The notes beneath the pieces were generated by a model. It was not told the origin of the DNA and made no database searches. It was given only the letters and a program-made list of their open reading frames with translations. A stretch of 64,000 nt of DNA from Mesotoga prima MesG1.Ag.4.2 (GTDB lineage: Bacteria; Thermotogota; Thermotogae; Petrotogales; Kosmotogaceae). The position numbers were made by a program, and so were the translations under genes. Location: positions 2,046,001 to 2,110,000 of the forward strand of contig NC_017934.1 of the NCBI RefSeq assembly GCF_000147715.2, read 5' to 3'. The number at the start of each line of letters is the position of its first letter. Position 1 is the stretch's first letter. Shown here piece after piece: positions 17,694 through 21,937 of this stretch.

Positions 17694-18464
17694 TCAGATC
17701 TTGAAGTCAATTGTGTTCTTTGATTTCGACTGCCCCATTTCGTATCCTTTGCCAAGCACAAGAACTAGACCAAGTTCTGCAGGCAGGCCGACCTCAGTAA
17801 TTTTCTCAACTGTAGATTTGACGTCATACTCAACTCTTCGAAATTCATATGAAATACTCTGCTGGACAACATCAATAATCAAATAGCAGGCCTTGGGATT
17901 TCCGTCCTTAGGCCTGCCGACGCTGCCGTCGTTGAAGACGAGTTTTCCCATCGCCCAGCGAACCATGGGAAGATGCGTATGACCGTTGACGACAACATCG
18001 GCTTTGACCCTCTCCAGCACTTTCTGTAGCCTTTCGCTTGAAGTATCTGGCCTTATGTACTCAAGTAAATGATCTACAGGGCTTCCATGAACAAGAAGAA
18101 ATTTCACACCCTCTTCTTCGAATTCCAATGTGTGAGGAAGTGAACGTAGGAACTCCTTAGCTGCAGCTGAAGTATTTGTTATGCTCCAGTTTAAGGACTC
18201 GTCTCCAACTTCCGTTTCTCTGCCGGGATTATATGCGCAGCCGCAGCTTTTCTTTTCATAACCTATCGCATCATCATAATTTCCCATTATCGTAGGGATT
18301 TTAAGGTCGCGAATTCTTTGAACAACCTCTTGTGGCTGAGGGCCATACCCTACTAGATCTCCAAGACAGTAAATTCTTTCAATGTTTTGACTCTCAATAT
18401 CTTTCAGCACTGCCTCAAGAGCCTCAAGATTTCCGTGTATATCCGAAAAGAATACGATTCTCAT
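17694..18464 (-). CDS. Calcineurin-like metallophosphoesterase
   Basis: A 256-residue phosphodiesterase of the YfcE/MJ0936 group. Metal-binding motifs are in order: FFSDIHGN (about 5-12), CLGDLVGYGP (33-42), IMGNYDDA (59-66), LLVHGSP (123-129) and VVNGHTHLPM (155-164). They bind two metals, commonly Mn. A four-cysteine-poor insert (SCGCAYNPG) follows the third motif. GGAGGTC lies seven bases before the ATG. Divergent from the ArsR-type operon; the target is unknown. Confidence 0.9.
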   Translation of the reverse strand: MRIVFFSDIHGNLEALEAVLKDIESQNIERIYCLGDLVGYGPQPQEVVQRIRDLKIPTIMGNYDDAIGYEKKSCGCAYNPGRETEVGDESLNWSITNTSAAAKEFLRSLPHTLEFEEEGVKFLLVHGSPVDHLLEYIRPDTSSERLQKVLERVKADVVVNGHTHLPMVRWAMGKLVFNDGSVGRPKDGNPKACYLIIDVVQQSISYEFRRVEYDVKSTVEKITEVGLPAELGLVLVLGKGYEMGQSKSKNTIDFKI

Positions 18465-18537
18465 TTTTCTTGACCTCCAGTAGTGATCTCCAGACTAGAT
18501 AGATATTACTCGATAAATATTGTCTCAGTATTCTTTC

Positions 18538-18570
18538 ATTGTTGCACAACAATGCAACATGGATTATTCT
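18538..18570 (+). promoter_or_regulatory. Promoter with overlapping operator palindromes of the ArsR operon
   Basis: TTGCAC (18542-18547), a 17-base spacer and TATTCT (18565-18570) form the promoter. ATTGTTG-CA-CAACAAT (18538-18553) and TGTTGCA-CAACAA-TGCAACA (18540-18559) are nested inverted repeats over its -35 box, as expected for an ArsR/SmtB repressor. Confidence 0.7.
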
Positions 18571-18598: not shown

Positions 18599-18886
18599 AT
18601 GAACAAAAGGACAGTCATGCTTTTCAAGGCACTGGGTTGTAGCTGGCGATTAAAAATTCTTGAACAACTTTCAAAGGGTACCCTATGTATTTGCGAGCTG
18701 GATGATCTTTTTGCGATAGATAAAACAACTCTCTCAAGGCACGTTAAGGCATTGGTAGATGCGGGCCTCGTCAAAGAGAACAGGAATGGTGCGAGAAAGG
18801 AGCTCAGCATAGCAGATAGAAGAGTCCTGGAGATTGTCGAGCTTGCCAAGTCAATCACTGATGTGTCATCACAAGAATCGGAGTAG
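18599..18886 (+). CDS. ArsR/SmtB-family metalloid-responsive repressor
   Basis: A 95-residue winged-helix repressor, started at the ATG at 18599 because GGAGGTG lies before it. GTLCICELDDLF near residue 30 carries the paired cysteines of the As(III)-type alpha-3 site (ELCVCDL in ArsR), followed by the recognition helix KTTLSRHVKALVDAGLV. Metal or metalloid binding to such cysteines releases the DNA. The next gene starts directly after its stop, so it heads an operon of permeases and redox proteins. Arsenite or an organoarsenical is the best guess for the inducer. Confidence 0.88.
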   Translation: MNKRTVMLFKALGCSWRLKILEQLSKGTLCICELDDLFAIDKTTLSRHVKALVDAGLVKENRNGARKELSIADRRVLEIVELAKSITDVSSQESE

Positions 18887-19372
18887 ATGACTGTGTACAG
18901 CACTGTAATCTATTTCATAACTGGATCGCTTCTAGTTATCTCTCTCATTGTAAGTCGAAAAAAGACACTTATGGCGCTCGAGAAAGCGTGGAGATCATTT
19001 GAGGGAATTCTGCCTGAACTGATCGCTATTCTGCTTTTCGTTGGATTGCTTATCGCGCTGTTGAATCCCGAGACAATTTCGCAGCTGCTAGGAGAAAGTT
19101 CGGGAGTTTGGGGGTTGCTTATAGCTTCAGCTGTTGGATCAATCACTTTGATTCCCGGTTTTGTCGCTTTTCCCACGGCGGTCATGTTGCTCGATAATGG
19201 AGCCGGGATAACTCAGATAGCTCTTTTCATTTCCACTCTGATGATGGTTGGAGTTGTTACTTTTCCGGTTGAGAAGAAATATTTTGGAAGTAGACTGACG
19301 ATTATGAGAAACGTGATGGCATTTGGATTCTCGTTTATAGTTGCCGGTCTTATGGGAGTGATTCTGGGATGA
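18887..19372 (+). CDS. Half-size permease, DUF318/ArsP superfamily (first half)
   Basis: A 161-residue membrane protein with about four to five helices. The phrase LLGESSGVWGLLIASAVGSI then LIPGFVAFPTAVMLLDNGAG matches one half of the predicted permease family that includes the organoarsenical exporter ArsP. It starts immediately after the ArsR stop and overlaps the next half-permease by four bases (ATGA). The two halves show the same L-G-E-x-S-G and F-P-x-A-x-x-x-x-x-x-G patterns, so they probably form a heterodimer equal to one full transporter. Confidence 0.8.
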   Translation: MTVYSTVIYFITGSLLVISLIVSRKKTLMALEKAWRSFEGILPELIAILLFVGLLIALLNPETISQLLGESSGVWGLLIASAVGSITLIPGFVAFPTAVMLLDNGAGITQIALFISTLMMVGVVTFPVEKKYFGSRLTIMRNVMAFGFSFIVAGLMGVILG

Positions 19373-19902
19373 AGGCGAAAAGGTATGTCTTTCCGCTAGT
19401 AATGGCAGGGTTCGTTTCTGCAGTATTTGCCGCAAACAATCAAGTCGGGCGAAACGCACTGAGCATTACTGGAACGAGTTTTTTGGAAATGTTATCAGTT
19501 ATTCCTCCGATATTTATTCTCTTGGGCCTTCTCGATGTCTGGATTCCGAGAGAGAAGATTACCAAACATCTGGGAGAGGAATCAGGTATCAAGGGAATAT
19601 CACTATCCTTTCTTCTTGGAGCGGCTGCGGCGGGACCTTTATATGGCGCCTTTCCAATAGCAGCGGTCTTCATGAAGAAAGGAGTGAAGTTTTCGAACGT
19701 ACTGATCTTCGTTGGAGCTTGGTCAACAACTAAGATTCCGATGTTCATGTTCGAAATGGGATCACTGGGTGCAGGGTTTGCTCTGCTCAGATTGGCAATA
19801 AACATTCCGGGAATACTACTTATGGCGATAATACTAGAAAGAATAACCGGTAAGGAAAGTATTGATGCGATATGTGCACAGGCTGCGAGCATTAGTGAAT
19901 AG
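19369..19902 (+). CDS. Half-size permease, DUF318/ArsP superfamily (second half)
   Basis: A 177-residue membrane protein; HLGEESGIKGISLSFLLGAA then GPLYGAFPIAAVFMKKGVKF mirrors the first half-permease. WIPREKITKHLGEESG is the loop typical of DUF318 proteins. Overlap with the preceding gene implies coupled translation. It lacks the Cys-Ser-Cys motif of the full-length permease that follows. Likely substrate: a metalloid or thiol-bound species, judged from the operon only. Confidence 0.8.
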   Translation: MKAKRYVFPLVMAGFVSAVFAANNQVGRNALSITGTSFLEMLSVIPPIFILLGLLDVWIPREKITKHLGEESGIKGISLSFLLGAAAAGPLYGAFPIAAVFMKKGVKFSNVLIFVGAWSTTKIPMFMFEMGSLGAGFALLRLAINIPGILLMAIILERITGKESIDAICAQAASISE

Positions 19903-19916
19903 GAGACATAATTGAG

Positions 19917-21032
19917 ATGGAGAAAGATTTGAAGAAAGAAGTTACGAAGTTCGTATTGTTGGCAGCTGGTTTTCTTGTTTTCTATTTTCTTCCTTTTGGA
20001 AGTCAATATGTACAGGATGCAATAATCAGCGGATTTACAATGCTTGGTTCATATGCAAGAGAACACGTACTTCTCTGTCTTGTGCCTGCCTTTTTCATTG
20101 CAGGCACTATCACTGTATTTATACGGAAGGATTCAATATTGAAACTACTGGGTCCCGACGCCCGAAAGATCATTTCATATCCAATCGCTGCCATTTCTGG
20201 TGGAATTCTGGCAGTTTGTTCTTGTACAATTCTTCCTCTTTTCGGAGGTATATACAAACGGGGCGCCGGCCTTGGACCGGCAGTTGCCTTCCTCTTTAGC
20301 GGTCCGGCGATAAACGTTGCTGCAATCTTCTTGACTGGAAGTGCTATTGGATGGGAGATGGCACTTGTGAGAATTCTTGGAGCCTCGACCTCGGCAATTT
20401 TTGTTGGTTTAACGATGCAGAGCATCTTTAGAGAAAAGGGATCAGGAGGTTTTGCGACCCAGGAATCGGATGATCATGTTTCCTGGCCTGAGGCGATTGG
20501 TTTTCTGGGTCTCCAGATGACCTTCTTAATTGTTGGCGGCCTGGCTATCGATCCGATAGTTAAGGCATCAATACTGATTATCTCCGCTATTGTGGTTTTT
20601 GTTATGGCTATACGTTTCAAGGGAGAACTGAGAAATCAATGGATAGGTGAGACTTGGGATTTTGCGAAGAAGATTCTTCCTTACCTTTTCTTCGGAGTCT
20701 TTGCCGCTGGAATAATATCCAGCGCGCTTCCCCAGAGCGTTGTCGAGTCACTTCTTGGGGGCAACAGATTTGTCTCAACTCTCTTTGCATCAGTCTTTGG
20801 AGCTTTCATGTATTTCGCGACTCTGACTGAAGTTCCTATCGTCCAGTCGCTAATGTTTCTAGGAATGGGAAAAGGTCCCGCCCTGGCGCTCTTTATGGCG
20901 GGTAATTCACTTAGTTTGCCTAGCATGATAGTTATAACTAAACTTCTGGGAAAGAAGAGAGCATTCACTTACTTTGGACTGGTAGTGTTATTCTCCACGC
21001 TGTGGGGATTCATATATGGAAGTCTATTTTAG
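19917..21032 (+). CDS. Full-length permease, DUF318/ArsP family
   Basis: A 371-residue protein with about eight to ten helices. The family motif appears as GGILAVCSCTILPLFGGIYK (about 98-117), including the C-x-C pair, followed by FLFSGPAINVAAIFLTG. The second half has LFMAGNSLSLPSMIVITKLL. ArsP members export trivalent organoarsenicals; others have unknown cargo. It lies 14 bases after the half-permease and 18 bases before a mini-thioredoxin, all in one operon under the ArsR-type repressor. Confidence 0.85.
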   Translation: MEKDLKKEVTKFVLLAAGFLVFYFLPFGSQYVQDAIISGFTMLGSYAREHVLLCLVPAFFIAGTITVFIRKDSILKLLGPDARKIISYPIAAISGGILAVCSCTILPLFGGIYKRGAGLGPAVAFLFSGPAINVAAIFLTGSAIGWEMALVRILGASTSAIFVGLTMQSIFREKGSGGFATQESDDHVSWPEAIGFLGLQMTFLIVGGLAIDPIVKASILIISAIVVFVMAIRFKGELRNQWIGETWDFAKKILPYLFFGVFAAGIISSALPQSVVESLLGGNRFVSTLFASVFGAFMYFATLTEVPIVQSLMFLGMGKGPALALFMAGNSLSLPSMIVITKLLGKKRAFTYFGLVVLFSTLWGFIYGSLF

Positions 21033-21050: not shown

Positions 21051-21284
21051 ATGAAGATCGAAATCTTTGGTTCGGGCTGTCCGAGGTGCAAACAGACAGA
21101 AAAGATTATGAAGATGGCCGTTGAAGAGTTGGATTCAGATGCGATAGTGGAGAAGGTAACAGACATGATGGTGATCATGGAGAAGGGAATAGTATCGACT
21201 CCCGCTGTCGCAGTCGATGGAAAGATCGTTATATCCGGGAAGATACCCTCACTAGATGAGGCGAAAAGACTCATCAAAGGTTGA
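21051..21284 (+). CDS. Small thioredoxin/glutaredoxin-like protein (MTH895/TM0996 type)
   Basis: A 77-residue thioredoxin fold without extensions. Active site C-P-R-C in IFGSGCPRCKQTEKI, cis-Pro segment IVSTPAVAVDGKI, and a final helix DEAKRLIKG, as in the archaeal-type mini-thioredoxins. Strong AAGGAGG ribosome site. Such proteins sit beside DUF318 permeases and ArsR regulators in many genomes, suggesting reductive handling of a thiol-reactive metalloid. An imperfect terminator follows. Confidence 0.92.
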   Translation: MKIEIFGSGCPRCKQTEKIMKMAVEELDSDAIVEKVTDMMVIMEKGIVSTPAVAVDGKIVISGKIPSLDEAKRLIKG

Positions 21285-21361: not shown

Positions 21362-21937
21362 ATGAAAGTGGTAGCCTTTAATGGAAGTCCGCGTGTTGAT
21401 GGAAACACCTCTAAGATGATTGAAGAAGTCTTCACTGTTCTAAATGATGGAGGAATAGATACCGAGATAGTACAAATTGGCGGGAACCCCGTAATGGGGT
21501 GCACTGCCTGCAATATCTGCTTCGAGACGAAAAACAGGAGATGCGCAATAGTTGATGACTATGTTAACGGTTGCATAGAAAAGATGCTTGAGGCAGACGG
21601 AATTATCTTCGGGACGCCGACTTATTTTGCGGATCTCTCGCCCGAGGTGAAGGCTCTGATTGACAGAGCAGGGATGGTGGCACTTGCCAACAACGCTATG
21701 TTTAAGAAAAAAGTAGGTGCGGCCGTAGTAGCGGTTCGAAGAGGAGGATCTGTTCACGCATTCGATTCTATCAATCACTTTTTCCTTATCTCTCAAATGA
21801 TAATTCCCGGTTCATCATACTGGAATCTCTCTCTAGCCTGGCGAAAAGGGGATTTCGAGAAAGATAAAGAGGGAATACGAACGATGAGAGTTCTCGGTGA
21901 AAACATGGCCTGGTTGCTAAGGAAGATCAACCAATAG
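21362..21937 (+). CDS. Iron-sulfur flavoprotein (NADPH-dependent FMN reductase family)
   Basis: A 191-residue flavodoxin-fold protein. The phosphate loop NGSPRVDGNTSKMIEE binds FMN, and the compact cysteine motif C-x2-C-x2-C-x6-C (GCTACNICFETKNRRC, about 47-62) ligates a [4Fe-4S] cluster as in Isf proteins. TPTYFADLSPEVKALIDRAG is the second flavin loop. Isf relatives reduce O2, peroxide or other acceptors. GGAGGTC lies before the ATG. It follows the ArsR operon after a terminator and may act with the permeases and mini-thioredoxin in redox detoxification. Confidence 0.9.
   Translation: MKVVAFNGSPRVDGNTSKMIEEVFTVLNDGGIDTEIVQIGGNPVMGCTACNICFETKNRRCAIVDDYVNGCIEKMLEADGIIFGTPTYFADLSPEVKALIDRAGMVALANNAMFKKKVGAAVVAVRRGGSVHAFDSINHFFLISQMIIPGSSYWNLSLAWRKGDFEKDKEGIRTMRVLGENMAWLLRKINQ

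Follow-up and report, generated by a model that had tools for sequence, protein, structure and literature searches.

A conserved pair of single-repeat ArsP relatives, probably forming a split transporter, in an ars operon of a Mesotoga-like bacterium

An ars operon in a Mesotoga-like genome of 2.98 Mb (Thermotogota), analyzed here in a window of 64,000 nucleotides (the whole stretch of DNA under study), contains two small adjacent genes, A and B, that encode a conserved split relative of the permease ArsP, probably a distinct transporter co-induced by metalloid. Specifically, it is fairly likely that A and B are subunits of one antiparallel, ArsP-related secondary transporter, metalloid-induced together with the full-length permease P encoded next to them. 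The evidence comes from profile comparisons, the pairing of the two genes across genomes, the distribution of charged residues in their loops, fold models and the conservation of candidate site residues.

Organization of the operon

The operon lies on the forward strand in the order arsR, A, B, P, ArsE-type thioredoxin and FMN-reductase-like gene (Table 1), the start of B overlapping the stop of A in the window (ATGA). A sequence-only reading of this DNA had pointed to two half-size reading frames of 161 and 177 residues followed by a 371-residue permease, and all three are present on this strand, as are the patterns it described as shared by A and B (LGESSG/LGEESG and FPTAVMLLDNG/FPIAAVFMKKG). 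The FMN reductase family gene is possibly the last member of the operon, and it is placed in matching order in two other loci (L045 and L047). Among the reading frames neighboring the operon no ACR3 was found, and the single SBF-family match in the genome lies far off. Divergent to arsR, a metallophosphoesterase gene occupies positions 17694-18464 of the reverse strand; in related genomes (L044, L046), ArsR and ACR3-like (SBF family) genes are found upstream in its place.

The start of arsR (ATG at 18599) was set by 95-residue homologues and an upstream ggaggtg. Its product contains a C-I-C motif (LCICEL), which we take to be a CxC site resembling that of metalloid-sensing ArsR proteins. The locus thus has the makeup of an ars operon, an ArsR with a cysteine metalloid site adjoining transporter genes, and the single metalloid-sensing repressor proposed earlier is found upstream of A, B and P. 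The palindrome preceding arsR, which on sequence grounds is likely the ArsR operator, is found just once in the 2.98 Mb genome even when two mismatches are allowed (expected number 0.01 per window), and related genomes of the genus keep it ahead of their arsR. In the presence of metalloid, ArsR repression would be lifted, and A-B, P and the thioredoxin would be induced together.

Table 1. Features of the ars operon, in positions of the window
Feature	Position	Strand	Evidence or remarks
Palindrome CATTGTTG-CA-CAACAATG, full CATTGTTGCACAACAATG	18537..18554	.	Perfect 8-2-8; upstream of arsR
arsR, ArsR/SmtB-type repressor, 95 aa	18599..18886	+	NCBIfam HTH_metalloreg above cut-off; Pfam HTH_5
A, half-size permease, 161 aa	18887..19372	+	Predicted N-out/C-out; no Cys; G122/E129/R141
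B, half-size permease, 177 aa	19369..19902	+	Predicted N-in/C-in; invariant Lys122
Lys122 codon of B	19732..19734	+	Invariant in 68 B homologues and all pair lineages sampled
P, full-length ArsP-type permease, 371 aa	19917..21032	+	ArsP cluster 1 (EHVLLCLVPAFFIAG); Pfam ArsP_1 266.7 bits
CSC codons of P, residues 101-103	20217..20225	+	Tip of first re-entrant hairpin, as modeled
Thioredoxin-like, MTH895/ArsE family	21051..21284	+	NCBIfam TIGR00412 93.2 bits vs cut-off 62
NADPH-dependent FMN reductase family	21362..21937	+	Pfam FMN_red E=8e-32

A and B as single-repeat relatives of ArsP

Against the Pfam model ArsP_1 (curated cut-off 32.3 bits), P scores far above the cut-off (E=3e-79), B also exceeds it (45.4 bits, E=8e-12) and A falls under it (22.5 bits, E=7e-5). 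Both A and B match the N-terminal half of the model, and they are therefore two copies of one repeat unit. The earlier description of A and B as the two halves of a DUF318/ArsP permease is right about the permease family, but not about a literal N-terminal and C-terminal half. The profile comparison that it had called for shows a homology well past what chance would give and places A and B closer to each other (E=4e-18 over 164 columns, full length) than either is to the halves of P (E 3e-10 to 4e-8); the two halves of P match each other with E=1.5e-11. P contains two repeats in one chain and A and B one each, and on these profiles each of A and B is a complete copy of the repeat found twice in P.

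In a tree of 80 repeat units, in which long branches are flagged by the program, A and B lie together beyond a branch with support of 100/99, A forms one clade (99/98), and the two ArsP repeats are located elsewhere. Because A and B group apart from both ArsP repeats, they most likely arose, as judged from this tree, by a separate duplication and not by the breaking or splitting of an ArsP. They have no C(S/T)C motif, so they are named here relatives of ArsP and not ArsP. The cluster-1 motif of P is as given in PMC4435449, and P scores under the NCBIfam cut-offs for SaoE and for SO_0444 copper-zinc efflux proteins (128.5 vs 325 and 119 vs 300).

Pairing and distribution

B was used to scan 84,980 species genomes, and 80 loci were kept, from Clostridia, Spirochaetes, Thermotogota and others; A-B pairs were found in Thermococcus too. 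A lies immediately upstream of B in all 80 loci, with the 4-base ATGA overlap in 46 of them. No natural A-B fusion was found. Two candidates were rejected, an A-B fusion in G062 (a 336-residue frame), where the locus reads as two reading frames, and a 741-residue B fusion in L099, whose frame crosses an N stretch, that is, an assembly gap. Both genes of the pair carry the RefSeq label 'permease', and a literature search on half-size ArsP, DUF318 and COG0701, covering few subscription journals, returned no description of the pair, which is widespread and, it appears, undescribed.

Opposite orientation in the membrane

Mean numbers of Lys plus Arg in the successive loops (N-terminus, L1, L2, L3, L4, C-terminus) are 0.07, 7.2, 1.0, 0.2, 3.9 and 0.07 for A, and 3.6, 1.7, 3.2, 2.8, 1.6 and 3.35 for B. 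Expressed as L1+L4 minus the rest, a loop grouping picked after inspection of the alignments, the bias is positive in 100 of 100 A proteins (mean +9.8, range 7 to 12) and negative in 101 of 101 B proteins (mean -9.5, range -14 to -5). The signs were unchanged in 11 further pairs, several of them from other lineages including Thermococcus, and most of these had no part in setting the loops. Under the positive-inside rule, the opposite bias predicts A to be N-out/C-out and B N-in/C-in, and the two should accordingly insert oppositely, as an antiparallel heterodimer. Homology of adjacent genes combined with opposite charge bias is the mark of an antiparallel two-gene pair. In other Thermotogota, B has a C-terminal PF04060 Fe-S domain, which is expected in the cytosol and so fits the predicted cytosolic C-terminus of B. 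Such Fe-S-tailed B genes are located at L016:1462-2184 (for which PF04060 is shown), L018:1348-2001, L020:1312-2064, L039:812-1501 and L124:1896-2678; in Thermotogota, a CRP/FNR regulator gene is often found near them.

From the obligate adjacency, the ATGA coupling and the opposite topology bias, we infer that the heterodimer suggested in the sequence-only reading is the best reading of the pair. The complete unit in each of A and B would comprise scaffold helices and an interfacial helix, next a re-entrant hairpin and a discontinuous helix, and one last helix; associated in antiparallel fashion, the two would restore the two-fold inverted repeat for which ArsP needs only a single chain. The assembled A-B would probably move in an elevator-like manner, as ArsB and DASS transporters do.

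Fold models

The AlphaFold2 model of P has a mean pLDDT of 68.5, with much of the core above 70 and residues 1-44 and 174-196 below 50. In each half of the model an interfacial helix is accompanied by a hairpin built from two half-helices and by a broken helix (84-98/102-114, 119-131/134-143, 285-297/302-314 and 319-331/334-344), and the model of B (pLDDT 86) has a helix series equal to both halves of the P model. When the P model was compared with known structures by VIA-align, ArsB of L. ferriphilum (10tp_A) was the best match (Z 14.5 over 319 residues), and the first 46 matches were nearly all IT/DASS, Pho90, CNT, AbgT and TRAP-type proteins, down to Z of about 6, after which Z falls to 5.4. 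Foldseek alone gave nothing significant by E-value with the P model, no IT-type match was listed for the B model alone against the PDB (best 9x2m_1, part of a Gut transporter, Z 6.5), and a PDB sequence search with the P and B profiles returned no relevant match. As modeled, P has the inverted repeat, with a re-entrant hairpin and a discontinuous helix per half, of the IT/ArsB-like elevator fold, and it resembles inverted-repeat elevator transporters. ArsB itself is an inverted repeat in which As(OH)3 is bound not by Cys but by polar residues located where helices break and at the tips of hairpins (PMC13381914).

Site residues and transported species

The CSC motif is found only in P, as had been noticed from the sequence, and all 24 P homologues compared keep its C101 and C103. 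Cys is entirely absent from 64 of the 69 A homologues and 52 of the 68 B homologues. Lys122 of B, located where the discontinuous helix is interrupted, is invariant in every lineage sampled, and G122, E129 and R141 of A are present in every lineage sampled. With a CSC site like that of the known ArsP proteins, P is likely an exporter of trivalent, probably organic, arsenicals. Because A and B are nearly devoid of Cys, a thiol-based site for trivalent arsenic of the ArsP type is unlikely in A-B on sequence; by analogy with ArsB, A-B may bind As(OH)3 through polar groups. The lack of Cys and the invariant Lys at the broken helix suggest that A-B would most likely export a different, non-thiol-bound species, a metalloid in inorganic or oxyanionic form or else some other ion that the same stress sets free. 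The earlier proposal that A-B and P transport different species is thus plausible, the CSC motif being missing from A and B.

It is possible, without being probable, that A-B is antiparallel but carries a non-metalloid cargo, a redox-, sulfur- or iron-related ion; its place in this ars operon would then reflect a disturbance of that ion's pool by metalloid stress. The absence of Cys and the Lys invariant in all lineages are consistent with such a cargo, as is the gene neighborhood: ArsR, ArsP, ACR3 or ArsC is found within four genes in only 37 of the 80 loci, and since about half of the loci are without an ars gene at that distance, an arsenic role is not general. Other lineages adjoin CRP/FNR regulators and Fe-S or NifX-like genes, some with an Fe-S-fused B, further pairs occur with PadR and Nitro_FeMo-Co proteins, and some lie near selenium-molybdenum cofactor genes together with a CRP/FNR gene. 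Against it, the lineage of the window repeatedly adjoins arsR, arsP, ACR3, ArsC and ArsE-type thioredoxin, one locus (L150 in G037) having in a row a P fragment, thioredoxin, A, B, ACR3 and ArsC; an ars role therefore fits this lineage, as far as gene content indicates.

Further neighborhoods were recorded. The Thermococcus pair lies near a P-type ATPase. One pair lineage follows PadR-like and Nitro_FeMo-Co (PF02579) genes (L126:983-2493, L125:994-2471, L144:1652-3538, L145:62-2594), and in Clostridia 8 of the 80 loci have a PF02579-type gene close to A-B. A fourth lineage has hairpin tips MGPPASGYP / VGPxxAFYP and unrelated neighbors (L146:1693-2681, L147:1765-2750, L149:1822-2828). A ferredoxin-DUF2703 fusion is near A-B/ArsP in Clostridia in 12 of the 80 loci (L062:1384-2142 and 11 others).

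Alternative arrangements of A and B

A and B could also be separate accessory or homodimeric proteins, assembling with P or acting alone, given that each half is a complete unit and that one operon holds A, B and P in the window. This is improbable, because A-B pairs are often found with no P in the vicinity, B is never found without A in the 80 loci, and the charge bias of each protein is strongly one-sided, not near zero. A parallel arrangement of the two subunits would follow from the 4+4 repeat model of ArsP, which PMC7176098 describes as two 4-TMS repeats and places in the TOG superfamily. It is more improbable still, since the opposite Lys/Arg bias has no exception and the model of P is like inverted-repeat transporters, in disagreement with the parallel 4+4 model. 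Although they are small adjoining frames of one family, A and B have next to no chance of being remnants of a broken, degraded or frameshifted ArsP gene, as they match one and the same half of ArsP_1, show mostly 50-60% identity to clostridial homologues in alignments with many invariant columns, and are conserved across phyla, intact and paired throughout.

Significance and comparison with known systems

Inverted-repeat transporters are thought to have evolved from small proteins that were paired in opposite orientation, and to our knowledge living pairs of this kind are found mainly in very small 4-helix families. If the antiparallel reading is true, a two-gene ArsP relative with hairpins and broken helices would carry the pair idea to the elevator fold. 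Many arsenic operons of anaerobes would also gain a transporter so far unrecognized, and the finding would count against the published parallel view of ArsP. It is possible, though less likely than not, that A-B is a distinct ancient family of Bacteria and Archaea, a naturally split elevator transporter of two oppositely oriented genes whose site is Lys-based and Cys-free; its ancestral substrate would then have been something other than arsenic, linked to redox, sulfur or iron, and some lineages would have taken it into their ars operons. On that reading A-B would be a surviving example of a two-gene step on the way to inverted-repeat elevator transporters.

Within the ArsP family (PF03773 ArsP_1, TC 2.A.119), P is a member by score, CSC site and cluster-1 motif, whereas A and B are homologous to the repeat unit but are single repeats on separate genes, without CSC, falling outside both ArsP repeats in the tree and bearing Lys122 (B) and G122/E129/R141 (A). 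Half-size ArsP homologues ('4' topology) are on record in TCDB/TOG work (PMC7176098), whose available part says nothing of how they pair, of an opposite orientation, of Lys/Cys features or of operon types. YdgE/YdgF (SMR type), YdgQ/YdgL and DUF606 (PMC3962082) are, like A-B, homologous adjacent genes with opposite Lys/Arg bias; A-B belongs to another family and has larger units with re-entrant hairpins. The P model shares with ArsB, the IT superfamily (DASS, AbgT, TRAP) and CNT an inverted repeat in which either half has a hairpin and a discontinuous helix. In the solved members listed one chain makes the inverted repeat, and A-B, judged from the P model, would be a split form of it.
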